Below, piece after piece: positions 1-15,329 of a stretch of 57,423 nucleotides of DNA. A program made the position numbers and the translations under genes. Each line of letters begins with the position of its first letter. Within the stretch, counting starts at the first letter, position 1. The stretch comes from Adlercreutzia sp. ZJ473. GTDB taxonomy: Bacteria; Actinomycetota; Coriobacteriia; Coriobacteriales; Eggerthellaceae. The stretch is from positions 1 through 57,423 of the forward strand of contig NZ_JAAVTO010000012.1 of assembly GCF_013185065.1 (NCBI RefSeq), given 5' to 3'. The notes below the pieces were generated by a model. The model saw only the letters and a list, made by a program, of their open reading frames with translations. It was not told the DNA's origin and made no database searches.

Positions 1-672
1 GCCGCCGCCGAAGGTGCCCTTCGTGGAGTCGCCGGCGAACAGCCACGCCGCGCCCTCGTCGTCGGACGCGGCCAGGATGCGGTCGGTGATCACCGGGGCC
101 GGCAGCTCGATGACCTCCTTGACGCCCACGGCGACGGCGGAGGCGGGCGGCCGGGCGGCCCCCACGGCCTCGGCGGTCAGCAGCGAGTTCACGCCGTCGC
201 ACAGGATGACCACGTCGGCGGTGATCTCGTCCTCGCCGGCGCGCACGCCGACGACCTTGCCGGCGTCGTCCTTCACCAGGCCCTCCACGGCGATGCCGTA
301 GATGAGCTCGGCGCCGGCCTCCTCGGCCTTCTCGGCCAGCCACGAGTCGAAGGGGGCGCGCAGGACGGAGTAGGAGTCCTGGCCCTCCTTGAGCATCTCG
401 TCGGAGGTGAAGTCGACGGTGAAGCTGGCGTCCTCGGACAAGAGCGAGATGCGCTCGCGCGTGATCTTGCGCTCGAGCGGGGCCTCCTGCTCGAAGTCGG
501 GGAACACGGCCTTCAGCGCATGGGAGTACACGCGGCCGCCGGTCATGTTCTTGGCGCCGGCGAAGTTGCCGCGCTCTATCACGAGAACGCTCTTGCCGGC
601 CTTCGCGAGCTCGTAGGCGGCAACCGGGCCAGCGCACCCGGCGCCTACGACGATGGCATCGAAGTCAGCCAC
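1..672 (-). CDS. fixC: FixC-like ETF:quinone oxidoreductase (3' part outside window)
   Basis: FAD-dependent dehydrogenase of the FixC/ETF-QO family, expected to pass electrons between the ETF encoded upstream and membrane quinone. 224 N-terminal residues are visible; the C-terminus lies beyond base 1. The N-terminus shows the Rossmann FAD motif GAGCAGPVAA and then ERGNFAGAKNMTGGR, where the KNMTGG segment is typical of FixC. I chose the GTG at 672-670 because AAGGAGG lies just upstream; it overlaps the end of the ligase gene by 28 bases, so the two are translationally close. It is the last visible gene of the operon that starts near 8310. A FixX-type ferredoxin would be expected further downstream and is not visible. 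The family call is secure; the physiological direction of electron flow is inferred. Confidence 0.85.
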   Translation of the reverse strand, partial: MADFDAIVVGAGCAGPVAAYELAKAGKSVLVIERGNFAGAKNMTGGRVYSHALKAVFPDFEQEAPLERKITRERISLLSEDASFTVDFTSDEMLKEGQDSYSVLRAPFDSWLAEKAEEAGAELIYGIAVEGLVKDDAGKVVGVRAGEDEITADVVILCDGVNSLLTAEAVGAARPPASAVAVGVKEVIELPAPVITDRILAASDDEGAAWLFAGDSTKGTFGGG

Positions 673-2234
673 GTCTCCTCCTTGTCTTCGGCTTCCCTTT
701 TCCTCGCGCTCTCGGAGAGGGCCCTCCTCAGCGCGTCCTTCACCACCTTGCCCGAGGCGTTGCGCTCGATCTTCCTCAAGAAGAGCACGTGGCGGGGCTT
801 CTTGTAGCCGCCGAGGCAGTGCTCGCAGCGCGCGGCCACCTCGTCGGCGGTCAGCGCGCCCGCGCCCTCGGACGCCACCACGAAGGCGGCGAGCGCCTCG
901 CCCCAGACGGGGTCGGGGACCCCTACGACGGCCACGTCGGCGACGCGCTCGCCGAGGCCCCTGATGCAACGCTCCACCTCGAGCGGGTACACGTTCTCTC
1001 CCCCGGTTATCACCAGGTTGTTCTTCCGGTCGACCAGGGTGAGGTATCCCGCCGCGTCGAAGAACCCGATGTCCCCCGTGAAGTACCAGCCCTCCCGCAT
1101 CACCCGCATGGTCGACGGCGCGTCGCGGTAGTAGCCGTTCATGAGCGTGGGCGTCTTCACCGCCACCTCGCCCAGCACGCCCGGCTGGCACTCGCGCCCC
1201 TGCTTGTCGATGACGGTGACCTCCATGCCCGGCAGGGCGCGCCCCACCGTGGAGCGCAGCGCCACGCTGTCGTGGTCGCGCGGCTCGAGCAGCGTGACGG
1301 CCGAGGCCGTCTCCGTCATGCCGTAGCCTTGGATGAGGCCGCAGCCCAGAACGCGCCGGCACCGCACGAGCAGCGCCTCGTCTATGGGCTCGCCCCCGTA
1401 GAGGACGTAGCGGAGCGAGCTCATCCGCTCGCCCGTCTCCTCGAGGTGCGCCACGAGCAGGCGCAGGACGTAGGGGACCGCGCCCATGCGCGTCACGCCG
1501 TGCTCGTTCACCAGCCGCACGATGTCCTCGGGGCGGCTCGAGTCGTCGATGACGACCTCCGCCCCCGCGAGAAACGCCGCGAACGTCGAGACCGACGTGA
1601 CGTGGAACAGGGGCAGGACGCTCAGCACCACGTCGTCCTCGCTGAACCACATGGCCCGGGCGTCGATCTCCGCGCGGGCGATGAGCGCCTGGTGGGAGAG
1701 CATGACGCCGTGGGGGTCCCCCGCGGTCCCGCTCGTGTAGATCATGAGCGCCGGATCCGACGGCGCCCTGTCGACGTGCTCGTCGAAGGGCTCAGCGCCT
1801 GCGATGAGCTCCTCGTAGGCGGACGACGCGAAGGCGTCGTCGCCGTCGAGCAGGATGACGGCGAGGGGGCGGCCCACCCCGCCGATGACCGGCGAGAGCC
1901 GCCCCCACACCGCCGACGAGCACACGAGCACGGTGGAGCCCGACGCGCCCAGCAGGCGGACGAGCGCCGCGGGCGACAGGCGCGTGTTGTGCTGCTCGCA
2001 CACCGCGCCGATCTGCGCGCAGGCGAAGGTGAGCTCCACGCACGCCAGCGTGTTCGCCGTCACGAGCGACACGTGGTGCCCGCGGCGCACGCGCAGCGCG
2101 CGCAGGATCCCCGCGAGGCGGTCGACCCTCCCCTTCACCTGCGCATACGTGAGCGCCCTGCCCTTGTGGCGCAGCGCGACCTTGTGCGGGCTGCGCCGCA
2201 CGGCGTCGGCCAGCATGTCAGGCAGGTACGTCAA
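645..2234 (-). CDS. AMP-forming acyl-CoA ligase, CaiC-like
   Basis: ANL-superfamily acyl-CoA synthetase of 529 residues, a normal length. It would adenylate a carboxylic acid and transfer it to CoA in the cytoplasm. Visible motifs: P-loop YTSGTAGDPHG at about 166-176, GYGMTET near 305, YFTGDIG near 392, the hinge region DRKNNLVITGGENVYP near 407 and the C-terminal lysine motif NASGKVVK. It overlaps the upstream CoA-transferase gene by four bases (ATGA) and the downstream fixC start by 28 bases, so it sits inside a tightly coupled operon. Having both a ligase and a CoA transferase matches carnitine (CaiC/CaiB) and caffeate (CarB/CarA) systems, where the ligase primes and the transferase recycles CoA. 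The substrate cannot be read from the sequence. Confidence 0.88.
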   Translation of the reverse strand: MTYLPDMLADAVRRSPHKVALRHKGRALTYAQVKGRVDRLAGILRALRVRRGHHVSLVTANTLACVELTFACAQIGAVCEQHNTRLSPAALVRLLGASGSTVLVCSSAVWGRLSPVIGGVGRPLAVILLDGDDAFASSAYEELIAGAEPFDEHVDRAPSDPALMIYTSGTAGDPHGVMLSHQALIARAEIDARAMWFSEDDVVLSVLPLFHVTSVSTFAAFLAGAEVVIDDSSRPEDIVRLVNEHGVTRMGAVPYVLRLLVAHLEETGERMSSLRYVLYGGEPIDEALLVRCRRVLGCGLIQGYGMTETASAVTLLEPRDHDSVALRSTVGRALPGMEVTVIDKQGRECQPGVLGEVAVKTPTLMNGYYRDAPSTMRVMREGWYFTGDIGFFDAAGYLTLVDRKNNLVITGGENVYPLEVERCIRGLGERVADVAVVGVPDPVWGEALAAFVVASEGAGALTADEVAARCEHCLGGYKKPRHVLFLRKIERNASGKVVKDALRRALSESARKREAEDKEETWLTSMPSS

Positions 2235-3472
2235 AGCCCACCAACGTAGTCGGTCTTGCGCAGCACGCGCGCCTCGTAGAGCTCTGCGATCTCGTCGGCG
2301 CCATAGCCCACCTCCGCGAGGATGTCGTCGTTGTCCATGCCCTGCGAGGGGCAGCCGCGCCAGATCCGCGCGGGGTTGTTCTTGAAGCGCGGAACTGACG
2401 TTACGCCCTTCACGTGCCTGCCGTCAACCGTGTCCCACTCAACCCAGGTGCCGCGCGCGAGGTAATGCGGGTGGCTCTCCATCATCTCATAGCTCATGAC
2501 CACCGAGCAGGGGATGTTGATGCCCGCCATGGCCTCGGCGAACTCGGCCGCGGTGTGCTCGGCGCAGTACGCCTCGATGGCGGCGTCGAACACGGGGGCG
2601 CCCGGCGTGTCGATGCCCACCGACGGGATGCCCTCGGGGAACAGCTCGCTGCCGTACTCGAGGCCGAAGAACTCGAGCGCGCGCCTTATGGTGGACTGCC
2701 CCGCCGTGAACAGGTACACGCCCTCGCCGTCCTTGCACGCGTAGTAGCCGGAGCCGGCGGAGATGCTGTCACGCGGGGCGCCGGCGCCGCGCTCCTCCTG
2801 GATGCGCTTCTCGAACCACTTGCCGAACAGGCCCGCCTGGCAGCGCACCGCGGCCTCGTACTGGGCCAGATCGAAGCTCTCCCCCTTGCCCGTGCGCTGT
2901 GCGCCGACGTACGCGGCCAGCGCCGACCCGTAGGCGAACAGCCCGGCGTAGTAGTCGGTCACGAACTTCTGGATCATGTAGGGCGGGCCGTCCTTGTAGC
3001 CGTTCAGGTACATGAGACCGGAGAAGGCGTTCACCGTGAAGTCGTACCCGGGCAGGCTCACGTACGCGGGGTCGCCCGTGAGGCCGTAGCCCGACAGGTG
3101 CCCGATGACCAGCCGGGGGTTGTGCTCCCACAGAAGCTCGTCCGAGTAGCCCCACTTCTCCCACTGGCCGCCGCGCGACGCCTCGATGAAGATGTCGGCG
3201 GTCTCGATGACGCGCAGGAACGCCTCGCGGCCCGCGGGGGACACCACGTCGAGCATGAGGTTGCGCATGTTGCGGTGCTCGTTCTGCACGCCCCACCCGT
3301 CCTGCGTCCAGCGGTACGGGTCGATGCCCTTGGGCGGCTCGAGCCAGATGACGTCGGCGCCGTTCTCCGCGAACAGCTCGCCCGCGAACGGGCCCGCCGT
3401 GGAGACCGCCGCGACCACCACCTTCAATCCCGCGAGGTTGCCGAAGACCGGCATGTCGTCATGTCTTGCCAT
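2231..3472 (-). CDS. Family III CoA transferase, CaiB-like
   Basis: 413-residue family III CoA transferase. It resembles L-carnitine CoA-transferase CaiB throughout: AGPFAGELFAENGADVIWLE at about 26-45, HNPRLVIGHLSGYG, GYDFTVNAFSG, TGKGES and RFKNNPARIWRG near the C-terminus. The conserved catalytic aspartate corresponds to D173 in FVTDYYAG (YTADYFSG in CaiB). The enzyme would move CoA from a product thioester to the incoming acid. It overlaps the ligase gene by four bases and starts 13 bases after the end of the flavoprotein gene. The family is certain. The carnitine-type substrate is not established, because no CaiD-like hydratase or BCCT carnitine transporter is present in the window. Confidence 0.88.
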   Translation of the reverse strand: MARHDDMPVFGNLAGLKVVVAAVSTAGPFAGELFAENGADVIWLEPPKGIDPYRWTQDGWGVQNEHRNMRNLMLDVVSPAGREAFLRVIETADIFIEASRGGQWEKWGYSDELLWEHNPRLVIGHLSGYGLTGDPAYVSLPGYDFTVNAFSGLMYLNGYKDGPPYMIQKFVTDYYAGLFAYGSALAAYVGAQRTGKGESFDLAQYEAAVRCQAGLFGKWFEKRIQEERGAGAPRDSISAGSGYYACKDGEGVYLFTAGQSTIRRALEFFGLEYGSELFPEGIPSVGIDTPGAPVFDAAIEAYCAEHTAAEFAEAMAGINIPCSVVMSYEMMESHPHYLARGTWVEWDTVDGRHVKGVTSVPRFKNNPARIWRGCPSQGMDNDDILAEVGYGADEIAELYEARVLRKTDYVGGL

Positions 3473-3485
3473 GGCATCCGCCTTT

Positions 3486-4853
3486 CTACGCGACGTACGT
3501 GTCGAAGAACTCGATGGCGCTGTTCGCGGCGAGCTCGGTGCCCACGCCCGAGCCGCCCGCCTCGGCGCCGACGACGAACAGGCCCTCGAGCGGCGTCTTG
3601 ATGCACGGCCGGTCGACGCCCGCCTGCCCCGCCCGCTGGGCGATGCCGATGCCCGCGCCGTCCTCGCCCATGATGCGCGCCGCGTCGGAGGGGAACACCT
3701 TCTCGACGAAGAGGGCGTGCTCGCGGAGCCCGGGGAAGCTCTTCTCGGCGAGGTCGATCAGCGCCTCCAAGATGGCAGGGCAGTGCTCCTCCTTGATGCC
3801 CGCCGGCACGGCCGTCGTCATCATGACGAGCTGCTTGCCCTCGGGCGCCACCGACGGGTCGAAGCTCGAGGGGACCACGATGAACGAGTTCAGCTCCTCG
3901 GGGACCTCGCCCGCCATGAGGCGGTCGTTGTACTCGCGCACGGGGGTGGACGAGAACCCCGAGAGCATCTTGATCTCGGGGCTTATGACGGTGTCGAGCG
4001 CGAAGCGCGCGATGATCGACACGAACGATATCTCCAGGCCGCGCACGTCCTCGACGTAGCCCTCGTCGAAGTGCTCGGGGCCCACCAGGCTGTCCACCGT
4101 CTCCTTGAGGCCCGCGTTCGAGACGATCATGTCGGCGCGATGCTCCTCGCCGCCGACCACCACGCCGACGGCGCGCCCCTCCTCCACGACGACCTTCTCC
4201 ACCGGCGCGCCGAAGCGGACCTCGGCGCCGTGCTGCTCGAGGCCCTTCAGGTACGCGCCCAGGATGGACACGCACCCGCCCGAGGGGTAGCCCGAGGCGT
4301 GCGCCTCGGACTCCCACTTGAGGCAGCGCGCGAACTCGCCCGCCGACAGGAGGTACTCGGGGATGCAGCAGTAGATGAAGCCGATCTGGCTCACGCACGC
4401 GTGGACGAAGGGGTCGGTGGTGTAGGCGTTCAGGAACTCCTCGAGCGTCTGGCCGTCGTAGTCGCTCGTCTCCTCGTCGCTCATGCCCTTCACGTCGGTC
4501 ACCATCTTGATGACGGCCTCGAAGTCCGCGTCAGGCACGCGCCCCTTGAGGTCCTGCGGGAACTTGAACGTCTCGCCGCCCGTCGACTGGACGGGGCGGA
4601 CCTTGGTGAACTCGATGCCGTGGTCGACCTCGCAGCGGTCGAGCAGCCCGATGAGCGGGCCCTTCGGCCCGCGTGAGATCAGGTGGACGCCGAAGTCGAC
4701 CGTGAAGCCGTCGCGCTGCGACGACCCGATGCGCCCGCCCGGCTGCAGGCGCTTCTCGAACAGCGCGACGCGCTTCCCGCTGTGGGCGAGCAGCAGCGCC
4801 GACGCCAGCCCTCCCACGCCCGCGCCGATGACGATCGCGTCATAGTGCTTCAT
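3486..4853 (-). CDS. Phytoene-desaturase-like FAD oxidoreductase
   Basis: 455-residue NAD(P)/FAD-dependent oxidoreductase of the phytoene desaturase / amine-oxidase fold. N-terminal dinucleotide motif VIGAGVGGLASALLLAHSG at about 8-26, then FEKRLQPGGRIGS, and a C-terminal FAD-closing segment GLFVVGAEAGGSGVGTELAA. No membrane segment or signal peptide is apparent. It lies between the thioesterase and CoA-transferase genes in the same orientation, so it is probably part of the same pathway. It is an unusual member of an acyl-CoA dehydrogenase/ETF operon: carnitine and caffeate operons lack it. It may saturate, desaturate or isomerise a C=C bond of the substrate, but this is inference. Start ATG at 4853; the ORF is complete. 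Confidence 0.75.
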   Translation of the reverse strand: MKHYDAIVIGAGVGGLASALLLAHSGKRVALFEKRLQPGGRIGSSQRDGFTVDFGVHLISRGPKGPLIGLLDRCEVDHGIEFTKVRPVQSTGGETFKFPQDLKGRVPDADFEAVIKMVTDVKGMSDEETSDYDGQTLEEFLNAYTTDPFVHACVSQIGFIYCCIPEYLLSAGEFARCLKWESEAHASGYPSGGCVSILGAYLKGLEQHGAEVRFGAPVEKVVVEEGRAVGVVVGGEEHRADMIVSNAGLKETVDSLVGPEHFDEGYVEDVRGLEISFVSIIARFALDTVISPEIKMLSGFSSTPVREYNDRLMAGEVPEELNSFIVVPSSFDPSVAPEGKQLVMMTTAVPAGIKEEHCPAILEALIDLAEKSFPGLREHALFVEKVFPSDAARIMGEDGAGIGIAQRAGQAGVDRPCIKTPLEGLFVVGAEAGGSGVGTELAANSAIEFFDTYVA

Positions 4854-4915
4854 GTGATGCTCCGTTCTGCCGCCCTCAGGCGGCGCTCACTCGGGGGCCT
4901 CCGCCTCGCGCGCCG

Positions 4916-5374
4916 CTACTTCTTCGCGGGGAGCGCGTAGTAGTTGAACTTCATGAGGGCGACCTGCTCGCCGTCGGCGTCGAGCACGGGGACGTCGAGG
5001 AAGTAGTCGCCGCGCCCGCGCTCGCGGGCCAGCGCGATCTTGTCCTGCGCCTCCTGCTCGGTGAGCGCGAGGTCGACGTGGAGGTCCTTCACGCCGGGCT
5101 TCACGTACGCGCACTCGACGCTCTTCAGGATGGGCACGAACTCGTCGGTGCCGTACGTGGCCATGAACAGCGTGCCGCCCGCGATCTCGGCCAGCACGAA
5201 CTCGCTTCCCGCGTACGCGATGCCCACGTGGTTTCGGTGCAGCTGCCCCAGGGGGAGCGCGATGCGCACGTGCCGCTCCTCCACGACCTCGGCCCTCAGC
5301 TCGGCCCTGTTCACGAACGGCGTCGGGCCGTTCGACACGTTGTCAGCCAGCTCCTGGAAAAAACCTGCGTCCAT
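4916..5374 (-). CDS. Hotdog-fold thioesterase (PaaI/DUF4442-like)
   Basis: 152-residue hotdog-fold protein, probably an acyl-CoA thioesterase releasing a CoA-bound intermediate. The helix segment HRNHVGIAYAGSEFVLAEIAGG fits the hotdog family, and the length is normal. An in-frame upstream start at 5434 exists but would lie inside the ETF alpha gene. I prefer ATG at 5374, which is preceded by GGAAGGGAAG and begins MDAGFFQEL. The gap after the ETF alpha stop is then 37 bases. Its place within a CoA-thioester redox operon suggests product release or proofreading of dead-end thioesters. Confidence 0.72.
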   Translation of the reverse strand: MDAGFFQELADNVSNGPTPFVNRAELRAEVVEERHVRIALPLGQLHRNHVGIAYAGSEFVLAEIAGGTLFMATYGTDEFVPILKSVECAYVKPGVKDLHVDLALTEQEAQDKIALARERGRGDYFLDVPVLDADGEQVALMKFNYYALPAKK

Positions 5375-5411
5375 GATCTTCCCTTCCGCGCTTCGCATGC
5401 ACCTGCGAAGG

Positions 5412-6377
5412 CTACCTCTCGAGCTCCGCGACAAGGCGCGGAACCACGTCGTACAAGTCGCCCACGATGCCGAAGTCGGCCTGCTTGAACACGGGCGCGC
5501 CCTTGTCCTTGTTTATGGCCACGACGACCTTCGCGCCCGTCGCGCCCACCATGTGCTGCACCTGCCCCGACACGCCCACGGCGATGAACAGGTTCGGGGT
5601 GAGCATCGCCCCCGACACGCCGATGTAGCGCTCGCGGGCCATCCACTTCGAGCCCTCGGCGACGGGGCGCGTGCAGCCCACCTCGGCGCCCACGGCGCGC
5701 GCGAGCTCGTACGCGAGCGCGAGGTCCTCCTCGGCCGCGAAGCCGCGCCCCACGCTCACGATGTTGCGCGCGGCGCTCAGGTTCACCGCGTCGACCTCGC
5801 GCGCGCGGCGCTCGACGAGCCTGATCCCCGACGAGCCCGGCTGCACCGCGAAGGTCTCGACCGCGCACGGCACCCCGGCGTCACCAGCGGCGCCTGGCGC
5901 GCTGGCGGCTTCGGCGGCCTTGCTCGCCAAGAGGGCGGCGCACGGCACCGCCACGACGAAGGCGCTTACGCCGCGCTCGACCGTCACCGCGCCGCCGCCG
6001 TAGACCATGCGCTCGGCGCGCAGCGCCCCCTCCTCGTCAACGCTGAGGCTCGTCGCGTCGCTCATCACGCAGGCCCCTCGGCGCGCCGCCACGCACGCGC
6101 CCAGAAGGCGCATGCGCTTGGTCGGCGCCACGAGAAGCGCGTCCGGCGTGCGCTCGGCCGCCAGCTGCGCCAGCACCTGAGCGCCGTCCTCGACGAGCGC
6201 GCCTCCCGCCAGGTGGATGACCGCGCCCGCGCCGCTCTCCCTCACCGCGTCCAGACCCTGCTCGTCCCCCATCCACACCGCGGTCGCGCACGCTCCCAGG
6301 TCGCGCGCAACCGCGACCAAGGCTGCGTAGTCAGAGGCGTCCTCAGCCGCAACCCAGACGTTCTCGCATCGCGTCAT
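5412..6377 (-). CDS. fixB: Electron transfer flavoprotein alpha subunit, FixB-like
   Basis: 321-residue ETF alpha subunit. The C-terminal FAD-binding domain carries the expected series: NIVSVGRGF, PVAEGSKWMARERYIGVSG, TPNLFIAVGVSGQVQHM, VVVAINKDKGAPVF and ADFGIVGDLYDVVP. The N-terminal half is more divergent and alanine-rich. It pairs with the ETF beta gene directly upstream (12-base gap) and with the FixC-like quinone oxidoreductase at the end of the operon. The heterodimer would carry electrons between the acyl-CoA dehydrogenase and FixC. Start ATG at 6377. Confidence 0.9.
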   Translation of the reverse strand: MTRCENVWVAAEDASDYAALVAVARDLGACATAVWMGDEQGLDAVRESGAGAVIHLAGGALVEDGAQVLAQLAAERTPDALLVAPTKRMRLLGACVAARRGACVMSDATSLSVDEEGALRAERMVYGGGAVTVERGVSAFVVAVPCAALLASKAAEAASAPGAAGDAGVPCAVETFAVQPGSSGIRLVERRAREVDAVNLSAARNIVSVGRGFAAEEDLALAYELARAVGAEVGCTRPVAEGSKWMARERYIGVSGAMLTPNLFIAVGVSGQVQHMVGATGAKVVVAINKDKGAPVFKQADFGIVGDLYDVVPRLVAELER

Positions 6378-6389
6378 ATCGCATCACCC

Positions 6390-7151
6390 CTACTTTGCAG
6401 CCTTGATGTCGGCAGCGAGGCTGCGCACGGCCTCGTCGACATCGCCTTCGTACATGACCTGCTTGCGCGCGACGCTCTGCGGGGCGAGCATCGACGTCAC
6501 CTCGACGCACGGCGCGCACGCTGCTCCCAGCTCGTCGACGGTCCACGTGGTGGACGGCTTCTTCCCGGCAGCCAGGATGTCCTTCAGCTGCGGGATGCGC
6601 GGGAGGTTGGCGTCGGAGGTGACCGAGATGACGGCGGGCGCGGCCAGCTCGAGGACCTCCACCTCGCCCTCGAGGCTGCGCTCGACCACCACGGCGTCCC
6701 CGTCGACGCGCACGGAGCTCACCGCGTTGACGACCGTCACGCCGAGCAGCGCGCCTACGAGCGCGCCGGTCTGCTGCCCGTACGCGTCGGCGGAGCCTTC
6801 GCCGAAGAACGCGAGGTCAAACCCGATCCTCTGCAGCGCCGCCGCGAGCACTGCGGCCGTCTGGAGCGCGTCGGCGCGCGCCATGCCCTCGTCGACCACG
6901 CAGAACTGCTCCGCCGCGCCGCGCGACAGGGCCGCCTTCCTCAGCTTGCTGTCGGACAGGCGCGCGTCGCCGGCGCTCAGGAGCACCGCGCGTCCCTCGG
7001 TGTCGGAGGCGACGCGCACCGCCTCCTCGATGGCGTTGAGGTCGTACTCGCCGAGCACGTAGCTCGCCTTGTCGAAGCGCAGCGTGCGGTCGTCGTTGGC
7101 CACGATGTCCTGCGCGTCCGCCACCACCTTGTAGCATGCGACTGTGTTCAT
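6390..7151 (-). CDS. fixA: Electron transfer flavoprotein beta subunit, FixA-like
   Basis: 253-residue ETF beta subunit with strong similarity to FixA: CYKVVADAQDI at the N-terminus, YDLNAIEEAVR, DLAFFGEGSADAYGQQTG, RSLEGEVEVLEL and the PRIPQLKDILAAGKKP segment. FixA of E. coli has matching CYKCVPDEQDI, YDLNAIEAA and DGSSDLYAQQ stretches. It lies between the acyl-CoA dehydrogenase (13-base gap) and ETF alpha (12-base gap) genes. The FixA type of ETF is linked either to carnitine metabolism or, in nitrogen fixers, to electron bifurcation; which applies here is unknown. Confidence 0.92.
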   Translation of the reverse strand: MNTVACYKVVADAQDIVANDDRTLRFDKASYVLGEYDLNAIEEAVRVASDTEGRAVLLSAGDARLSDSKLRKAALSRGAAEQFCVVDEGMARADALQTAAVLAAALQRIGFDLAFFGEGSADAYGQQTGALVGALLGVTVVNAVSSVRVDGDAVVVERSLEGEVEVLELAAPAVISVTSDANLPRIPQLKDILAAGKKPSTTWTVDELGAACAPCVEVTSMLAPQSVARKQVMYEGDVDEAVRSLAADIKAAK

Positions 7152-7164
7152 GTCAGCCTCCCGC

Positions 7165-8310
7165 CTAGCGCGCTTCCTTGACGAGCGCGCGGCCCGCGGT
7201 GTGCACCATGATCTCGTCGGTGCCCGCCATGATGCGGTAGACGCGCTGGTCGCGCCACAGGCGGGCGATGCGGCAGTCGTTGGTGTAGCCGATGCCGCCC
7301 ATGATCTGGAGCGCCTCGTCGATCACCTCGAACGCGGCCCTGCTCGTGTAGCGCTTGACCAGCGAGGAGTCGACCATGATGGACTCGCCGTGGTCCTTCT
7401 TCCACGCGGCCTTGTACAGCATGTTCTGCATGTTCTCGATCTTGATCCTCATGTCGACGATCTTCTCCTGCACCAGCTGGAACGAGCCGATGGTCTTGCC
7501 GAACTGCATGCGCTGGGCCGCGTACCGCGCCGCCTCGTCGTAGGCGCAGCGGGCCATGCCCACGTTGGCGGCGCACAGGGTGAGGCGCTCCACCTCGAAG
7601 TTCTTCATGAGCTGGTAGAAGCCCTTGCACTCCTCGCCCACCAGGTCGGACTCCTCGCACTCGACGTCATCGAGGTACACCTCGTAGGTGCCGCACATGT
7701 GGTTGCCGATCTTGTCGAGCTTCTCGATGGTCACGCCGGGGGAGTCCATGGGGAACAGGTACATGCTGAAGTCCTTGTAGGGGTTCTCGTTGACGCCGCT
7801 GCGGCACACGCAGAGCATGAAGGGCGCGCGGTCGGCGCTCGTGTTGAAGGTCTTGTGCCCGTTGATGTACACCTTGCCGTCGCGCTTCGTGGCCGTGGTG
7901 GACATGGCGGCGCTGTCGGAGCCCGCCTGGGGCTCGGTGAAGCCCAGCGTGAAGGGCTTTCGGCCCTCGAGCGCGTAGGCGAGGACCTTCTCGCGCTGCT
8001 CCTCGTTGCCGAACGTCAGGATGTCGTCGACCTCGGTGGAGTAGTTGATCCAGCACAGCGACGGGTAGCCCTGGGCGTGCGCCTCCTCGGCGACCATGAC
8101 CTGCGTGAGGATGTCGACCGACGTGCCGCCGAACTCCTCGGGGATGCCGAGCGTGGAGAACCCCGCCTCGACGAGGGCCTCGACGGCCTTGTCGGGGAAC
8201 TGGTGCGTCTCGTCGCACTCCTTGAAGTAGTCTTCGAAGTTGCCGCGCTCGAACACCGTGCGCAGGCTCTCGAGCAAGAGCTCCTGCTCCTCCGTCTTCC
8301 TGAAGTCCAT
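7165..8310 (-). CDS. Acyl-CoA dehydrogenase, CaiA-like enoyl-CoA reductase candidate
   Basis: 381-residue acyl-CoA dehydrogenase, close in layout to CaiA: MDFRKTEEQELL, the FAD-binding stretch GFTEPQAGSDSAAMSTTA, NGHKTFNTSADRAPF, AARYAAQRMQFGKTIGSFQ, QIMGGIGYTNDCRIARLWRD and AGTDEIM (the region of the usual catalytic glutamate). It is the promoter-proximal gene of the operon and precedes both ETF subunits. In CaiA and CarC systems such enzymes work as enoyl-CoA reductases in anaerobic respiration. With fixA, fixB and fixC in one unit that direction is plausible here but not proved. The start at 8310 follows an AAGGGGC-type ribosome site. Confidence 0.9.
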   Translation of the reverse strand: MDFRKTEEQELLLESLRTVFERGNFEDYFKECDETHQFPDKAVEALVEAGFSTLGIPEEFGGTSVDILTQVMVAEEAHAQGYPSLCWINYSTEVDDILTFGNEEQREKVLAYALEGRKPFTLGFTEPQAGSDSAAMSTTATKRDGKVYINGHKTFNTSADRAPFMLCVCRSGVNENPYKDFSMYLFPMDSPGVTIEKLDKIGNHMCGTYEVYLDDVECEESDLVGEECKGFYQLMKNFEVERLTLCAANVGMARCAYDEAARYAAQRMQFGKTIGSFQLVQEKIVDMRIKIENMQNMLYKAAWKKDHGESIMVDSSLVKRYTSRAAFEVIDEALQIMGGIGYTNDCRIARLWRDQRVYRIMAGTDEIMVHTAGRALVKEAR

Positions 8311-8422: not shown

Positions 8423-8460
8423 ATTATAGAAACGGCGCCTGGCATAGGAAAAATACGTAT
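8423..8460 (-). promoter_or_regulatory. Promoter and candidate LysR operator of the acyl-CoA dehydrogenase operon
   Basis: Reading leftward there is a perfect palindrome ATACGTAT (8460-8453), 24 intervening bases, then a perfect -10 box TATAAT (8428-8423). No good -35 box is present, which fits an activated promoter, and the palindrome would be centred near -40. The identical palindrome at the identical distance precedes the transporter gene at 9760. The divergent LysR gene is the natural candidate regulator. Confidence 0.6.
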
Positions 8461-8517
8461 GTTGCAGCCGGGAGCCCCTCAGATGTTCGCCCTGCATGCG
8501 CAGATTGCAGCCCCCGT

Positions 8518-8565
8518 ATTCACCTTATGAATAGTTTTGGCAGGACCAAACGGCTAGAGTAGGAA
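8518..8565 (+). promoter_or_regulatory. Possible promoter and autoregulatory site of lysR (8585)
   Basis: The inverted repeat ATTCA-N5-TGAAT (8518-8532) is followed by a possible promoter TTGGCA-N17-TAGGAA (8537-8565). The repeat has the T-N11-A form common at LysR sites. The match to promoter consensus is moderate. Confidence 0.35.
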
Positions 8566-8584
8566 AGCGGAGAGAGGAGCGCTC

Positions 8585-9556
8585 GTGGACATCGAGATCT
8601 ACCGAGAGTTTATGGCGTTGGCGGCTCACAAGAGCTTCGTCTCGGCGGCGCGCGACCTGAACATGTCCCAGCCCTCGCTCAGCCGTCACATGACCTCCCT
8701 CTCGAACAACCTCGGCTGCAAGCTCTTCTACGAGACGCGCCCCCTGAGCCTCACCGCCGCGGGCGAGGTGGTGCTCCGCTACGCCAGCAAGATCGTCGGC
8801 GACGAGGAGAACATGATCGCCGACTTGCGCTCGCTGCCGTCGTCGGGCGGCAGCCGCATCCGCATCATCGACATGCTGCACACCAACGCGCTCTACGTGG
8901 GCCTGAACGAGGTGATCGCGCAGACGAAGGAGGCCTTCCCCGACCTGCGCGTCGACTATCCCAACATGGACGCGAGCGGGTTCGACGCGCAGCAGATGGT
9001 CCAGCAGGACAAGGTGGACATCGCCTTCGAGACCATCCTCTCCGACGACCCGCTCGCCACGCCCTGCGTGCCGGACGACCTGCGCGCCATCTGGATCCCC
9101 GAGTTCCACGGCGAGCTCGTGATGGGCATCTCGCAGGGCTCCCCCCTCGCGACGCGCACGTGCCTCGAGCTCAAGGACCTCGCCTCGTCGCGCTTCATCC
9201 TGCAGGCCAACCGCTACAGCGAGCGCTTCCGCAAGGACTTCGTGGCGATGTGCGCCGAGGTGGGCTTCTACCCCAACATATCGCTCGTGCCGGTGGAGAA
9301 CCCGCTCATGTTCTACGGCACCGAGCCGGCCGACGGCATCCACCTGCTCTCGCGCGTCAACAAGAAGTACAAGCCGCTCATCGCCAACCTGCTCAAGCAG
9401 TACGTGGTCATCAGGCCGCTGTGCGACAAGAAGCGCTACGTGGACTCGTTCGCCCTCGTCAAGCGCGACACCGACAAGCCTGCGCTCGCCTGGCTGGCCA
9501 ACCTCCTCGAGCAGCACGCCGAGGCGCTGCACGACGAGGTGCTCGCAGGCGACTGA
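8585..9556 (+). CDS. LysR-family transcriptional regulator
   Basis: 323-residue LysR regulator. The N-terminal winged helix-turn-helix is typical: FMALAAHKSFVSAARDLNMS then QPSLSRHMTSLSNNLGCKLF, followed by a substrate-binding domain from about residue 90. The start is GTG at 8585 with GAGAGGAGC just upstream. It is divergent from the acyl-CoA dehydrogenase operon and upstream of the anion transporter, the usual LysR position next to its targets. Both flanking transcription units carry the same ATACGTAT palindrome. The inducer is probably the pathway substrate or an intermediate. Confidence 0.9.
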   Translation: MDIEIYREFMALAAHKSFVSAARDLNMSQPSLSRHMTSLSNNLGCKLFYETRPLSLTAAGEVVLRYASKIVGDEENMIADLRSLPSSGGSRIRIIDMLHTNALYVGLNEVIAQTKEAFPDLRVDYPNMDASGFDAQQMVQQDKVDIAFETILSDDPLATPCVPDDLRAIWIPEFHGELVMGISQGSPLATRTCLELKDLASSRFILQANRYSERFRKDFVAMCAEVGFYPNISLVPVENPLMFYGTEPADGIHLLSRVNKKYKPLIANLLKQYVVIRPLCDKKRYVDSFALVKRDTDKPALAWLANLLEQHAEALHDEVLAGD

Positions 9557-9643
9557 CCGATCCCGCCCGCCCCTCAGCGCGTCCTCCCGACTATTCGGAT
9601 TCTGCATAGCACCTGCACGCTTTTCCGCAGATTCCCCCTTGAC

Positions 9644-9681
9644 ATACGTATTTGTCGCATACTCGCCCAGGCCCGTAGAAT
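9644..9681 (+). promoter_or_regulatory. Promoter and candidate LysR operator of the anion transporter
   Basis: Palindrome ATACGTAT (9644-9651), 24 bases, then a -10-like TAGAAT (9676-9681). The arrangement copies that of the divergent operon at 8423-8460, and the bases after the palindrome also agree partly (TTkTCsyAT in both). TTGACA overlaps the palindrome at 9639-9644 but is too far from the -10 box to act as a normal -35. Transcription would begin near 9688. Confidence 0.58.
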
Positions 9682-9759: not shown

Positions 9760-11172
9760 ATGGAAAGCACTAACGTATCGCTCGTCAAGAGGCTCATCGG
9801 CATAGGCATCGCCCTAGCCTGCATCTCAGTCTCCTACCTCATACCCGGGACCGAGGCCCTCGGGCATGAGGGCATCGTCACGCTCGGCCTCCTTTTGGCC
9901 CTCGTGGCCCTCTGGGTGACCTCGGCCATTCCGCTGGGCGCCACCGCCGTGCTCATCGCCGTGCTCATGTTCCTGCTCGGCGCCGTCGACAACCTGGGGA
10001 AGGCCATCATGGGCTTCGCGAGCCCCGCGCTCTTCTTCATCATCGCCGTGTTCGCGCTGCCCGTCATCATGCTGAAGACCAAGTGGGGCATCCGGCTCAT
10101 CAACGCGCTTCTGAAGTGGACCGGCTCGAACTCCCGCAAGCTGGTCTTGGGCTTCATGATCGCCACCACGCTGGTGTCCACCGTCATGTCCGACGTTCCC
10201 ACCACCGTGCTGTTCCTGGGCTTCGCGCTCACCATCCTGAAGGCGGCGAACGCCAAGCCCGGCAAGTCGAACCTCGGCAAGTGCCTCATGATCGGCATCC
10301 CCATCGCGGCCGTCACGGGCGGCGTCGCCACGCCGGCCGGCAGCTCCTTCAACGTCGTCGCCATGAACATCCTCCAGCAGGTGACGGGGACCTCCATCAC
10401 GTTCCTCGACTGGCTCATCGTGGGCCTGCCCATCGCCATCATCATGACGCCCATCACCTGGTTCTTCATCACCCAGCTCATCAAGCCCGAGCCCATCGAC
10501 GACTCCTGCCTCCAGGACATCCGCGACGAGGCCGCCGAGGCCAAGACCGTGTCTCCCTATGAGATCAAGGCCCTCACCATCATCCTCATGCTGGTCGTCC
10601 TCTGGATCGTGGGCAACTGGGTGCCCGTGTTCAACGCCACCGTCGTCGCCGTCCTCGGCCTGGTCGTCATGTTCCTCCCGGGCATGAACCTGCTGACGTG
10701 GAAGGAATTCCAGGATGCCGTGCCGTGGGGCATCGTGCTCATGTGCGGCACCATCATGTCCATCGGCGACGTGGTCACCGCCACCGGCGGCGCCAAGTTC
10801 CTGGCTGACGCCTTCATGGCGAGCGGCGTCCTGAGCCTCGGCTTCCTCGCCACCATGGCCATCCTCCTGGCGTTCGCCTACATCCTGCACACCGTCTGCC
10901 CCGTGGGCGTTGCCATCCTCGGCATCTTCCTGCCCATCTTCATCCAGATCTGCGCAGGCTTCGGCGTCTCGGCCGCCGTGCCCACCATCTCGCTCGCCAT
11001 CGTGGTCGCCGGCAACTACCTGATGCCCGTCAACCCGACCGTCATGCTGACCTACGGCGAGGGCTACTACTCCTTCGGCGACATGTTCAAGACCGGCCTC
11101 GTCCCGGCCATCGCGCTGATCGCCGTCATGACGCTGTGGGTGCCCTTCATCGTGGGAATCCTCGGCGTCTAG
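9760..11172 (+). CDS. DASS/SLC13-family anion transporter
   Basis: 470-residue integral membrane protein with about a dozen hydrophobic segments, of the divalent anion:sodium symporter family. Indicative stretches are TSAIPLGATAVLIAVLMFLL near the N-terminus, GVATPAGSSFNVVAMNIL in the first substrate-binding loop and AGNYLMPVNPTVMLTYGEG in the C-terminal half. The longest ORF opens at 9688, but that is at the predicted transcription start. I take ATG 9760, which has GAAGGGGGAAG in front. The shared operator with the operon at 8310 suggests that it imports the acid that the operon handles. Dicarboxylates are common substrates in this family, but the substrate here is unknown. Confidence 0.85.
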   Translation: MESTNVSLVKRLIGIGIALACISVSYLIPGTEALGHEGIVTLGLLLALVALWVTSAIPLGATAVLIAVLMFLLGAVDNLGKAIMGFASPALFFIIAVFALPVIMLKTKWGIRLINALLKWTGSNSRKLVLGFMIATTLVSTVMSDVPTTVLFLGFALTILKAANAKPGKSNLGKCLMIGIPIAAVTGGVATPAGSSFNVVAMNILQQVTGTSITFLDWLIVGLPIAIIMTPITWFFITQLIKPEPIDDSCLQDIRDEAAEAKTVSPYEIKALTIILMLVVLWIVGNWVPVFNATVVAVLGLVVMFLPGMNLLTWKEFQDAVPWGIVLMCGTIMSIGDVVTATGGAKFLADAFMASGVLSLGFLATMAILLAFAYILHTVCPVGVAILGIFLPIFIQICAGFGVSAAVPTISLAIVVAGNYLMPVNPTVMLTYGEGYYSFGDMFKTGLVPAIALIAVMTLWVPFIVGILGV

Positions 11173-11356: not shown

Positions 11357-12301
11357 TCACGCGAAGGGCAGCGCGTCGGCGCCGTCCCGCGACAGGAAGT
11401 CGGCCTTCGCGAAGCGGCGCGTGGCGCTCTTCACGAAGTCGGCGAACGCCACCACGAGCTCCGTCTCCTTCGACTTCTTCCACACCGGCCCCGCGACCAG
11501 GTCGAGCCCGTCGCCCTCGATGCGCGCGAACGCGAGGTTGTTCCCGCCGTACACGCTCAGGTGGTCGGGCGTGATCGCCACCTGGTTCGAGGCGACGAGC
11601 GTCGCCATGAGCGCCGCGGCGTCGGATATCGCGTCGTTCACGCGCACGTCGACGCCCGCCTTCCGCAGCTTCACGCTCAGCTGGGCGAGCGTGTTGTGAG
11701 CGCTGCTGAAGCGCGGCATCACCACCACCTCGCCCCGCAAATCGTCGATGGTCACGCTCGCGCGCTGCGCGAACCGGTGCGTCTTCGGCGCGGCGAGCTT
11801 GTAGCTGTCGGCGTAGAGGCGCCGGCACGCGTACTTCCCGCCGAGCACCCCCTCCGAGAACAGCGTGAAGGCGACGTCGACGTTGTTGTCGGCGAGCTCC
11901 CTCGTCAGCTGGCCGATCTCGAGCGTGCGGAAGCTGAAGCTCACGTCGGGGCGGACGTCGCGGAACATCCGGCACGCCACGGGGAGGAACGACCCGTACG
12001 AGCCCAGGAGGAAGCCGACGCGCATGACCGAGGAGGCGCTGTCGCAGAAGAGCCCGATGCGGCTTATGGCCGTCTCGTAGTCGGCGATGATCTTGCCGGC
12101 GTCCTCGCAGAACAGCGCGCCCACCTCCGTCAGGCGCACCGAGTGGCTGTCGCGCACGAGCAGGCGCACGCCGAGCTCCTTCTCCAAGTTGGATATGTGG
12201 CTGCTCAGCGCCGACTGCGCCATGTACAGGCTGCGCGCCGTCTCGGTGAAGCTCAGGTTGGATGCAAGCAGGAGGAACTCGTAGAGCGTTTCGATGCGCA
12301 T
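11357..12301 (-). CDS. LysR-family transcriptional regulator
   Basis: 314-residue LysR protein: helix-turn-helix at about 15-45 (LSFTETARSLYMAQSALSSHISNLEKELG), substrate-binding domain from about 92. A perfect -10 box TATAAT on the minus strand lies at 12352-12347, about 45 bases before the start codon. It is downstream of, and in the same direction as, the molybdoenzyme/ferredoxin pair, but a terminator hairpin separates them, so it probably has its own promoter. Its targets are unclear; the neighbouring molybdoenzyme operon is a reasonable guess. Confidence 0.88.
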   Translation of the reverse strand: MRIETLYEFLLLASNLSFTETARSLYMAQSALSSHISNLEKELGVRLLVRDSHSVRLTEVGALFCEDAGKIIADYETAISRIGLFCDSASSVMRVGFLLGSYGSFLPVACRMFRDVRPDVSFSFRTLEIGQLTRELADNNVDVAFTLFSEGVLGGKYACRRLYADSYKLAAPKTHRFAQRASVTIDDLRGEVVVMPRFSSAHNTLAQLSVKLRKAGVDVRVNDAISDAAALMATLVASNQVAITPDHLSVYGGNNLAFARIEGDGLDLVAGPVWKKSKETELVVAFADFVKSATRRFAKADFLSRDGADALPFA

Positions 12302-12413
12302 GGCGGGCCTCCTCGGAAGAATCTCCTCGAAAGGGTGTCTCCCGCCATTATAGCCTCCGCGCGCGAGGCGAGGCAGGGGGCGAGGCGGGAGGCGAGAAAG
12401 GAGCGAAAGAGAA

Positions 12414-12448
12414 GGGCGCCCGCGCGGCCGAAAGCCCCGCGGGCGCCC
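12414..12448 (-). terminator. Terminator of the molybdoenzyme/ferredoxin operon
   Basis: An 11-bp perfect stem (12414-12424 with 12438-12448) with a 13-base loop begins 22 bases after the ferredoxin stop. On the minus strand it is followed by the T-rich stretch TTCTCTTTCGCTCC. Confidence 0.65.
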
Positions 12449-12470
12449 TCTGCGGCGCGTGGCGCGTCCG

Positions 12471-12794
12471 CTAGGAGAACATCACGACCTTCTGCTTCCT
12501 CATGAGCTCGGTGAACTCCTCCTGCGCGCCGATGTACAGGCACCCCGCCTGGCAGTGCTGCACGCAGGTGGGCAGCTTGCCGGCGGCCTGGCGCTCGGCG
12601 CAGCGGTCGCAGCGGTCCGTGGGGATCGGCAGGAACTCGTACTGCCAGCGCGTCTCGGACAGCTGGTCAGGGCCGATCTGGGTGAGCTTGATGCCGAACT
12701 TGTCGGGGCCGAGCCCGTGCTCCTGCTGGCAGGCGATCTCGCAAGAATGGCAGCCCGAGCAGAACTCGTAGTCGACGACGATCACTTGTCTCAT
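12471..12794 (-). CDS. Small two-cluster 4Fe-4S ferredoxin subunit of molybdoenzyme
   Basis: 107-residue iron-sulfur protein, shorter than DmsB-type subunits (about 200). It shows CSGCHSCEIAC at about 12-22, then CDRCAERQAAGKLPTCVQHC, enough cysteines for two [4Fe-4S] clusters. It would pass electrons to or from the molybdoenzyme encoded 15 bases upstream. A closely similar protein is encoded at 34782 beside a paralogous molybdoenzyme, so the pair is a repeated module. There is no signal peptide and no membrane anchor gene nearby, so it is probably cytoplasmic. Confidence 0.85.
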   Translation of the reverse strand: MRQVIVVDYEFCSGCHSCEIACQQEHGLGPDKFGIKLTQIGPDQLSETRWQYEFLPIPTDRCDRCAERQAAGKLPTCVQHCQAGCLYIGAQEEFTELMRKQKVVMFS

Positions 12795-12809
12795 GGTAAC
12801 CCTCCCCTT

Positions 12810-15122
12810 CTATTCCTCTACCTTGCTGATGGCGCACAGCTGGGACTTGTACGAGGCGCCGAGGCCCACCTTGCCCGGGCGCATGGGAACCAGCTTGTTG
12901 ATGTTGCACTCCATGACGCCGAAGAGCGTCCCGTCCTCGGGGTCGCGCTCGGGGAACCACCACGCGTGGTCGGCCGAGACCGTGTCCTTGCGGATGCGCA
13001 CCGTGAGCTTCGCCTTCTGCCGGCACGAGCCGAAGTTGTTCTCGACCTTCACCCAGTCGCCCTCGGCGATGCCGTGGCGCGCGGCCGTCTCGGGGTGGAT
13101 GAGGATGGTGGGGTCGGGGTGGATGCTGCGCATGGAGGCCGACTGACGGTGCTCCGAGTGGAAGAAGCCCCAGATGCGCGCGCCCGTGGTGAGCACGAGC
13201 GGGTACTTCTCGGCCAGGTCGGGGCGTGAGACGGGACTCTCGGGCGGCTCCTCGTACGTCGCCAGCGGCGAGAGGCCGAAGTGCAGCATCTCAGGGCAGT
13301 AGAAGTTGTAGCGCCCCGTCGACGTGGCGAAGCCCACCTCGCCCTTGCGGCGCAGCAGGCCCTTCTCGTACTTGCGGTACTCGAACTCGGGGTAGGCCCA
13401 GGTGCGTTCGCGCAGCGACTCGTAGGTGAAGCCCGTGTTGCGCAGCAGGTAGTCGTAGAACCCCTGCTCGTCGTCCCACTGCTTGTACTCGTCGGAGGTG
13501 AAGCGGCTTCCCACCTCGTAGATGATGCGCTGGTCGGACCGGCACTCGCCGAGGGGCTCCACCGCCTGGGCGATCGCGCCGAGGGCGTAGGGCTGATGTC
13601 CCGTGATGCCGAGGCGCTCCGCGAAGCACGCGGCCGGCAAGAGCACGTCGGCGCACGCGAGCGCCGTCGGCGTGAGGAACAGGTCGACCACCACGTTGAA
13701 GTCGGTGCCCTGGAGCGCGGGAAGGATGCGCTGGGGCTGCGCGCCCATGCAGGCGATGGCGTTGTTCTGCATCATGAACATCGCCTTGATGGGATAGGGC
13801 TCGCCGGTCTCGAGGGCCTCGAGCAGCATGTCGGGGCTGATGGCGTCCATGGCCTTCAGCGCCGGGTACTTGCCGTTCATCGTCTTGTCCGCGGCGGCGA
13901 CGGGGGCCGAGCACGCGCGCCACACCTTCTCGCTGGGCATCCACGTCACGCTCATGTCGAACGTCGGACGCGCAGCCACCATGGTGCCAGGCTTCTCGAA
14001 GTTGCCCGTGAGCGCCATGAGGTCGAAGCACGCCATGCCCGTGATGAAGCCCTCGGAGGTGTGGTCCATGGCCACGCCCCACTGCAGGCACGCCGACTTC
14101 GCGCTGCCGATGCAGCGGGCCGCCTTGACCACGAGCTCCTCGGGCACGCCGCAGGTCTCGGCGGCGAACGCGGCCGTGCAGGGCCTCACGTGCTCCTTGA
14201 ACTCGTTGAAGCCGTAGCACCACAGGTCGACGAACTCCTTGTCCTCGAGGCCCTCCTCGATGATGACGTTGCACAGCGCGAGCGCGAGCGCCGCGTCGGT
14301 GCCGGGGCGGAGCTGCAGGAACACCTCGGCCTTGCCCGCCACCCAGGTGAGCACGGGGTCCATCACGATGAGCTTGCTGCCGCGCTTCATGCTCTCGACC
14401 ACCCAGTGACCCAGCGTGCCGTCCGAATTGGCCACCACCGGGTTGTTGCCCCAGATGAGGATGTACTCGGGCGCCTCCCAGCGCGGGTCGTCGTAACGGT
14501 CGGGGAAGAACTGCGAGTAGTCGCACACGAACAGCCCGCCCGCCTTGAGGGCCGTGCTGAAGATGCGCGGGGCGTAGCATGCCTGACCCGACAGGAAGCC
14601 GGTGCCGTAGTTCGGCGTGCCGAGGTACTGGGCCATGAGCGGGCCGTAGCCGTTGATGTCGCGGCCCGTGCCCTGCGTCACCCAGATGGACTCGGGGCCG
14701 TACGCCTCCGCGACCTTCTTCATCTCCCGCTCGATGATGTCGTAGGCTTCCTCCCAGCTGATGCGCTCGAAGGCGTTCTTGCCGCGGTCCTCGCGGGCGC
14801 GCTTCAGGGGATGGCGCAGGCGGTCCTCATGGTAGAGCATCTCCTTGAACGCCAGGCAGCGCGGACACAGGCGCCCCTGGTTGTACGGGTTCTCCGGGTC
14901 GCCCTCGATCTTCTCGAGCACGCCGTCTCTCACGTACATGAGGATGCCGCAGTTGTCGTGGCATCCCGGGCCGGAGCGCGCGTTGGAGCGGATGACGGTG
15001 CAGCCGTCTTCCTCCCACGTCCACTTCCTGCCCGCCGGGTCATCCTGCGTCTTGGGATAAGGAGCGCCAGCCCCTTCGGCCCCCTGCGCCTCAAGCTGCG
15101 CGCGATCTTGCCTCTCGTCCAT
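12810..15122 (-). CDS. Molybdopterin oxidoreductase, acetylene hydratase/catechol dehydroxylase-like group
   Basis: 770-residue bis-MGD enzyme of the DMSO-reductase superfamily. ATG at 15122 (GAGAGGGG upstream) is chosen over the longer ORF to 15419, whose extra N-terminus looks random. Visible: PGCHDNCGI at 52-60, GRLCPRCL at 83-90, SGQACYAPR around 178-186 with C182 as the likely Mo ligand, LRPGTDAALALA, and a C-terminal WWFPERDPEDGTLFGV resembling acetylene hydratase. The first cysteine of the usual Cx2Cx3C...C cluster motif is replaced by glycine (G51), although C41 is nearby. No Tat signal is seen. It is followed by a ferredoxin gene. The substrate is unknown; Eggerthellaceae use this group for catechol dehydroxylation and related reductions. 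Confidence 0.82.
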   Translation of the reverse strand: MDERQDRAQLEAQGAEGAGAPYPKTQDDPAGRKWTWEEDGCTVIRSNARSGPGCHDNCGILMYVRDGVLEKIEGDPENPYNQGRLCPRCLAFKEMLYHEDRLRHPLKRAREDRGKNAFERISWEEAYDIIEREMKKVAEAYGPESIWVTQGTGRDINGYGPLMAQYLGTPNYGTGFLSGQACYAPRIFSTALKAGGLFVCDYSQFFPDRYDDPRWEAPEYILIWGNNPVVANSDGTLGHWVVESMKRGSKLIVMDPVLTWVAGKAEVFLQLRPGTDAALALALCNVIIEEGLEDKEFVDLWCYGFNEFKEHVRPCTAAFAAETCGVPEELVVKAARCIGSAKSACLQWGVAMDHTSEGFITGMACFDLMALTGNFEKPGTMVAARPTFDMSVTWMPSEKVWRACSAPVAAADKTMNGKYPALKAMDAISPDMLLEALETGEPYPIKAMFMMQNNAIACMGAQPQRILPALQGTDFNVVVDLFLTPTALACADVLLPAACFAERLGITGHQPYALGAIAQAVEPLGECRSDQRIIYEVGSRFTSDEYKQWDDEQGFYDYLLRNTGFTYESLRERTWAYPEFEYRKYEKGLLRRKGEVGFATSTGRYNFYCPEMLHFGLSPLATYEEPPESPVSRPDLAEKYPLVLTTGARIWGFFHSEHRQSASMRSIHPDPTILIHPETAARHGIAEGDWVKVENNFGSCRQKAKLTVRIRKDTVSADHAWWFPERDPEDGTLFGVMECNINKLVPMRPGKVGLGASYKSQLCAISKVEE

Positions 15123-15161
15123 GGAAACCCCTCTCGCTCTTAGGGCGAACACTGTGACCTG

Positions 15162-15233
15162 ATTATAGAATCCGCAGATCAGAGCGTGCATTTTGATTAT
15201 CAGATCGGCTATCGCGCAATCCGATAGCCGATC
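15162..15233 (-). promoter_or_regulatory. Promoter and large inverted-repeat operator upstream of the molybdoenzyme
   Basis: On the minus strand a perfect -10 box TATAAT lies at 15167-15162. Upstream of it is a perfect 12-bp inverted repeat, GATCGGCTATCG and its complement, at 15203-15214 and 15222-15233 with a 7-base spacer, centred near -60. The position and symmetry suggest a regulator-binding site. No regulator gene is directly adjacent. Confidence 0.5.
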
Positions 15234-15292
15234 GGAGCAAGGGGTCGAGGCGAAGGGAAGGCGGGGCCGCCGAAGCGGCCCGAGAGAAGGAC

Positions 15293-15329
15293 GTGGCCCC
15301 GAGGCAGCGCCAAGCTGCCCCGGGGCCAC
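15293..15329 (-). terminator. Terminator downstream of purB
   Basis: A 15-bp stem with one mismatch (15293-15307 with 15315-15329) and a 7-base loop lies 29 bases beyond the purB stop, followed on the minus strand by GTCCTTCTCTC. Confidence 0.6.

Follow-up and report, generated by a model that had tools for sequence, protein, structure and literature searches.

The T-N11-A dyad is a signature of sites bound by the LysR family (PMC4834489, PMC6449761), and the usual description of a LysR-type regulator has a primary site near -65 and a secondary site that is not conserved (PMC4834489). In the BenM/CatM, CatR/ClcR, and ThnR systems, the LysR gene lies divergent from its target operon, the promoters carry T-N11-A dyads, the proximal site sits beside the -35 region, and a second, separate unit stands under the same kind of site, with ThnR controlling several promoters. 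The locus described here shares these features, T-N11-A dyads being present in its target promoters. Its upstream boxes, however, are placed at -110 and/or -88, whereas divergent LysR systems have theirs near -65 (ThnR PC: -76), and it is the proximal site that is best conserved.

The enzymes of the locus recall the Car (caffeyl-CoA reductase) and cai/fix/ydi operons, which likewise combine an acyl-CoA dehydrogenase (ACAD) and its own EtfAB with a CaiB-type CoA-transferase and an acyl-CoA ligase. In contrast to those operons, this one has an additional CrtI-like flavoprotein and DUF4442 protein, putative LysR control, and a DASS transporter, and its CoA-transferase and ligase miss the curated cut-offs of the known models. 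The dadh locus of E. lenta (LuxR DadR, LysR DadS; PMC9734109) also places a regulator beside substrate-induced redox genes in gut Actinobacteria. There a LuxR-type protein activates the catechol dehydroxylase genes (PMC9734109), whereas here a LysR protein is paired with a defined site and no LuxR-type gene occurs among the conserved neighbours.

A LysR gene between an operon and a transporter

The stretch of DNA analysed here (57,423 nt, hereafter the window) contains the following genes.

645-8310, minus strand: CoA-thioester operon (ORFs, Pfam, NCBIfam; kept in nine LysR1 loci), with the genes
7165-8310, minus strand: ACAD
6390-7151, minus strand: EtfB
5412-6377, minus strand: EtfA
4916-5434, minus strand: DUF4442 thioesterase-like protein
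3486-4853, minus strand: CrtI/amine-oxidase-like flavoprotein
2231-3472, minus strand: CaiB-type CoA-transferase
645-2234, minus strand: AMP-forming acyl-CoA ligase
8585-9556, plus strand: LysR1, LysR-type regulator and proposed regulator (Pfam HTH_1 and LysR_substrate; orthologues)
9760-11172, plus strand: DASS-family anion transporter, with its most likely, corrected start at ATG 9760 (Pfam Na_sulph_symp; orthologues)
11357-12301: LysR2, a second LysR gene, adjoining the transporter

LysR1 has the make-up of a LysR-type regulator of about 300 residues: its 323 amino acids comprise an N-terminal HTH_1 domain (57.9 bits; cut-off 26.6) and a C-terminal LysR_substrate domain (35.3 bits; cut-off 28). 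BenM is its nearest solved regulator, and LysR1 falls below the curated cut-offs for both BenM (NF040709, 50.2 bits against 600) and CatM (NF040710, 40 against 580). A literature search covering papers outside subscription returned no description of how the LysR1/CoA-operon cluster is regulated. The ACAD scores above the cut-off of the YdiO-type model NF008997 (553.9 bits against 537), and CarC is one of its best solved relatives. The CoA-transferase resembles CaiB at a score under the equivalog cut-off of NF002914 (365.9 bits against 413), and the ligase is likewise under the curated cut-offs of known NCBIfam models. The transporter far exceeds the Pfam Na_sulph_symp cut-off and scores 192.2 bits against TIGR00785 (cut-off 198.6). 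Its start is most likely ATG 9760 (MESTNVS...) rather than the listed GTG 9688, since orthologues begin with MENTNV or MESTNV and AGAAGGGGGAAGT directly precedes this ATG, while GTG 9688 falls on the predicted transcription start. Positions 11357-15323 of the window contain LysR2 together with genes for an FeS protein and a molybdoenzyme; for the latter, acetylene hydratase is the best solved relative.

Architecture of the two promoters

A preliminary description of the window had noted a palindrome, ATACGTAT, 24 bases before the TATAAT of the operon promoter and the TAGAAT of the transporter promoter, with a LysR gene between the two copies. We confirmed both copies, their spacing, and the intervening gene, which is LysR1. 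The palindrome occurs twice in the whole window, where 0.04 copies are expected, and none of 100 dinucleotide shuffles reached two. The operon promoter reads ATACGTAT-TTTTCCTATGCCAGGCGCCGTTTC-TATAAT on the minus strand (8460 to 8423) and the transporter promoter reads ATACGTAT-TTGTCGCATACTCGCCCAGGCCCG-TAGAAT on the plus strand (9644 to 9681), the gap being exactly 24 nt in each. The stretch ACATACGTATTT is common to both, with partial matches beyond it. The host genome (2,629,492 bases, 2.63 Mb) contains seven copies of the palindrome, compared with two in a reversed-letter control, and only the two in the window have a TANNNT 23-25 nt downstream. The remaining five (loci L003-L007) were rejected as sites for want of a matching promoter arrangement. 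The promoter elements are as follows, with all positions relative to the start derived from predicted -10 boxes.

8423-8428, minus strand: -10 box TATAAT of the operon promoter, predicted start about 8416 (sequence; 24-nt spacing kept in all orthologous promoters)
8453-8460, minus strand: palindrome ATACGTAT of the operon promoter, -44 to -37
8442-8456, minus strand: proximal T-N11-A box GTATTTTTCCTATGC, centre -33 (logo; best dyad-scan column)
8453-8467, minus strand: proximal T-N11-A box CTGCAACATACGTAT, centre -44, sharing GTAT with the box centred at -33 (logo)
8496-8510, minus strand: middle box CTGCAATCTGCGCAT, about -88, 8/10 to ATGCA-N5-TGCAT, one base off register
8518-8532, minus strand: distal T-N11-A box ATTCATAAGGTGAAT, perfect dyad ATTCA-N5-TGAAT, about -110, one base off register
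9593-9607, plus strand: upstream T-N11-A box ATTCGGATTCTGCAT of the transporter promoter, -95 to -81, centre -88
9644-9651, plus strand: palindrome ATACGTAT of the transporter promoter, -44 to -37
9648-9662, plus strand: proximal T-N11-A box GTATTTGTCGCATAC, perfect GTAT-N7-ATAC, centre -33
9652-9657, plus strand: TTGTCG, weak -35 hexamer abutting the palindrome, 18 bp to the -10 box (TTG kept at -36 to -34 in the logo)
9676-9681, plus strand: -10 box TAGAAT of the transporter promoter, predicted start about 9688

A logo of 15 non-redundant promoters reads cTGCAACATACGTATTTGnnnCATRC to -26, followed by TTYC-TATAAT. Two 15-bp T-N11-A boxes, with centres at -44 and -33, overlap in the palindrome and together form a proximal site of ~25 bp abutting the -35 region. 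The 8-bp site of the preliminary description is real, but it is only the core of this double box, and the boxes at -88 and -110 had been missed. The 24-nt gap resolves into 6 + 18, as the TTG after the palindrome stands where one would expect the start of a -35 hexamer with an 18-bp spacer. In every promoter the -35 hexamer adjoins or runs into the proximal box, and the hexamers are weak or absent (TTGTCG, TTTTCC, TTATTC). The proximal boxes of the two promoter classes show an identity of 0.77 (77%), compared with 0.27 (27%), the background level, in the flanks.

Farther upstream, most promoters carry an in-register box of the ATGCA-N5-TGCAT type at -117 to -103, with a weaker counterpart at -95 to -81. 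A permutation test with this motif, which was chosen after inspecting the promoters, returned 0/20,000 both for all promoters and for the transporter type alone; for the dehydrogenase promoters by themselves the value was 0.009. In a sequence-free scan for dyad symmetry, which used only the 15-bp spacing across the 15 promoters, -33 ranks first and -110 second. The logo holds little information at -79 to -52, and the in-register boxes lie at -110 and -88 rather than near -65, unusually far upstream for a LysR-type regulator. In the window's transporter promoter, the -88 box is the only upstream one, and the -44 box has no T at its left end; the position of ATTCGGATTCTGCAT agrees within a base with that of a perfect ATGCA-N5-TGCAT in G364, a genome of another family considered below. 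The distal operon box ATTCATAAGGTGAAT is positioned between the operon and lysR promoter regions. The box centres are 22, 44, and 11 bp apart, which suggests an arrangement on one face of the helix.

Conservation and co-occurrence with LysR1

LysR1 orthologues with 62-97% identity are encoded in eight other Eggerthellaceae genomes; among the relatives with names are Adlercreutzia sp. ZJ176, Gordonibacter pamelaeae, Gordonibacter sp. An230, Raoultibacter timonensis, and Eggerthella sinensis. As in the window, where the ACAD operon (minus) and lysR (plus) diverge, the genes for ACAD, EtfBA, the DUF4442 protein, the flavoprotein, and the CoA-transferase are divergent from lysR in 8/8 of these loci. 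The G086 locus is interrupted, with a partial CoA-transferase match and no ligase found. We inspected the ACAD promoters with the originally reported 8-mer alone, which avoids circularity. The preliminary description had staked its proposal on conservation of the palindrome before orthologous operons, and a box was found there in all eight genomes (seven exact ATACGTAT; ATACGCAT in G028), 24 nt before a TATAAT-like box in each of them. A second box, again 24 nt before a -10, stands ahead of the transporter unit in each of the eight. With both units boxed in nine LysR1 genomes, the earlier suggestion that they form one regulon is supported.

These nine genomes hold 19 sites, namely those of the ACAD operon and the DASS unit in each, plus one in G053 (Eggerthella sinensis, L095, 5550-5589), where a third LysR1 box precedes a molybdoenzyme/FeS/membrane-subunit operon just downstream of lysR1. 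The site lies directly before the transporter in the window, G028, G066, G068, and G085; a membrane-protein ORF resembling an MFS carrier intervenes in G086 and G089, and about 1.5 kb in G039 and G053. The site persists while gene order and the distance to the transporter vary, and its spacing is conserved across at least six genera and a second family. LysR1 is the sole regulator gene kept in all nine neighbourhoods. Two equal-score DASS copies flank the cluster in G085 (Raoultibacter; L094/L023), with a box found at one. An extra exact ACATACGTATTTG in G086 (C1:1283299) was discarded as a site, having no -10 at the right distance.

We then searched 138 family genomes for the extended pattern ACATACGTATTTGN3CATN14YTATAAT with at most three mismatches. 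It is present in 9/9 LysR1-positive and 0/129 LysR1-negative genomes, with zero matches in the reversed-letter control; the hypergeometric chance is 3e-14 by genome and 8e-8 at the genus level, both naive values that ignore shared ancestry. At the order level (395 genomes), the pattern occurs in 10/10 LysR1-positive genomes and 1/385 negative ones. This single match without LysR1, in G282, is AT-rich with a broken core and was set aside as chance-like. G364 encodes a LysR1 orthologue at 52% identity and was held out when the pattern was made. The pattern is also present there: its box, ATACGCAT, is exactly 24 nt before TAGAAT, accompanies the perfect ATGCA-N5-TGCAT at -96 to -82, and precedes orthologues of the window's molybdoenzyme and FeS genes. 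The 13-mer core is not diagnostic by itself, since with one mismatch it occurs at background frequency where LysR1 is absent.

Two further observations concern these loci. The window itself has no LysR1 box before its molybdoenzyme and FeS genes. A second T-N11-A dyad, TATGCTGATTCTGCATA, precedes the G364 lysR1 orthologue (L108, G364:C280, 456-472) and may be an autoregulation site.

Genomes lacking LysR1 provide natural controls. DASS orthologues (68-74%) in G055, G064, G065, and G132, all without LysR1, have no box, the best match having at least seven mismatches, and we rejected the transporter as carrier of the motif. G055 keeps the DASS gene, a LysR2 orthologue, and the FeS and molybdoenzyme genes much as in the window and has no LysR1, CoA operon, or box. 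ACAD relatives (51-69%) in 15 genomes without a LysR1 orthologue also have no box, nor is one found in G062 and G129, where a LysR relative of 33-34% identity, similar to LysR1 in the helix-turn-helix region, lies beside a 61-69% dehydrogenase. As judged from these sequence comparisons, the motif follows LysR1 rather than the enzymes or the transporter by themselves, which supports the earlier naming of the LysR protein as the likely regulator. LysR1 and the CoA operon occur together in all nine family genomes (the operon was not seen on the short G364 contig), so co-occurrence by itself does not completely distinguish LysR1 from a regulator of the cluster that is encoded elsewhere and acts in trans; the transporter controls help on the transporter side only.

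A proposed LysR1 switch and its alternatives

Very probably, the two boxes are sites of LysR1, which would bind the upstream and proximal boxes and turn on both units upon inducer. LysR1 is indicated as the binder by the T-N11-A dyads, by the divergence of its gene from the operon, and by a co-occurrence that is nearly exclusive, and activation is favoured because the -35 hexamers are weak and the LysR family usually activates (PMC4834489). Points that weigh against LysR1 are the boxless loci of G062 and G129 despite the similar helix-turn-helix region of their LysR relatives, the placement of the upstream boxes beyond -65, and, in the window's transporter promoter, the lack of a -110 box and of the left-end T of the -44 box. 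LysR1 would occupy T-N11-A boxes at about -110 and/or -88 together with the proximal double box (-44, -33), right next to a -35 hexamer that is weak (TTGnnn or poorer) and set 18 bp from the -10. The organic acid that is transported, or the CoA ester of this acid, probably serves as inducer, and induced LysR1 would contact RNA polymerase to switch on the CoA-thioester operon and the anion transporter. The distal operon-promoter box, which also lies in the lysR upstream region, may mediate autorepression. More tentatively, and with somewhat less than even confidence, we picture a LysR-type activator on an array of T-N11-A boxes at -110, -88, -44, and -33, separated by about whole turns (22, 44, and 11 bp). 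Such an activator would wrap or loop over 70 bp of DNA, its conserved anchor being the proximal pair and not a site at -65, and in gut Actinobacteria it would coordinate uptake, CoA-thioester redox chemistry, and, in some genera, a molybdoenzyme.

A box centred at about -40.5 and abutting the -35 hexamer is also in the position of a class II activator. It could belong to another regulator encoded elsewhere, such as a membrane LuxR-type protein like those activating the E. lenta catechol dehydroxylase genes (PMC9734109), with LysR1 only travelling alongside the cluster. We regard this as quite unlikely, given that LysR1 is the one regulator conserved in the nine neighbourhoods, that upstream and proximal T-N11-A dyads in register fit a LysR protein, and that all 129 family genomes without LysR1 lack the box. 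The position of the proximal box against or over the -35 hexamer in every promoter would also suit LysR1 acting as a repressor from an operator over the -35 region, relieved by substrate; the weak or absent hexamers are typical of activated promoters, however, and most LysR-type proteins activate their targets (PMC4834489), making repression unlikely.

LysR2 adjoins the transporter in the window and might recognize the boxes in place of LysR1, but no LysR2 orthologue was found in 6/9 box-bearing loci, and G055 combines a LysR2 orthologue and the transporter with no box, which leaves this reading very improbable. Chance, or residual similarity from duplicated promoter DNA, could be suspected from the shortness of an 8-bp word and from the one-mismatch 13-mer core, which arises by chance in many genomes. 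Against this stand the excess of palindromes over expectation in the window, the identical distance kept across genera and in a second family, and flanks of the two promoter classes that are no more alike than background; we consider such an origin exceedingly improbable.

With the proposed control of both units by LysR1, a guess from a single sequence becomes a regulon that is defined and testable, its regulator named and its sites given exactly. It concerns gut Eggerthellaceae (Adlercreutzia, Gordonibacter, Raoultibacter, Eggerthella), for which few regulator sites are known. The unusual spacing of the boxes bears on how LysR-type proteins reach RNA polymerase, and since the transporter and the CoA operon would share a switch, the acids that induce it would reveal the substrate of the pathway.
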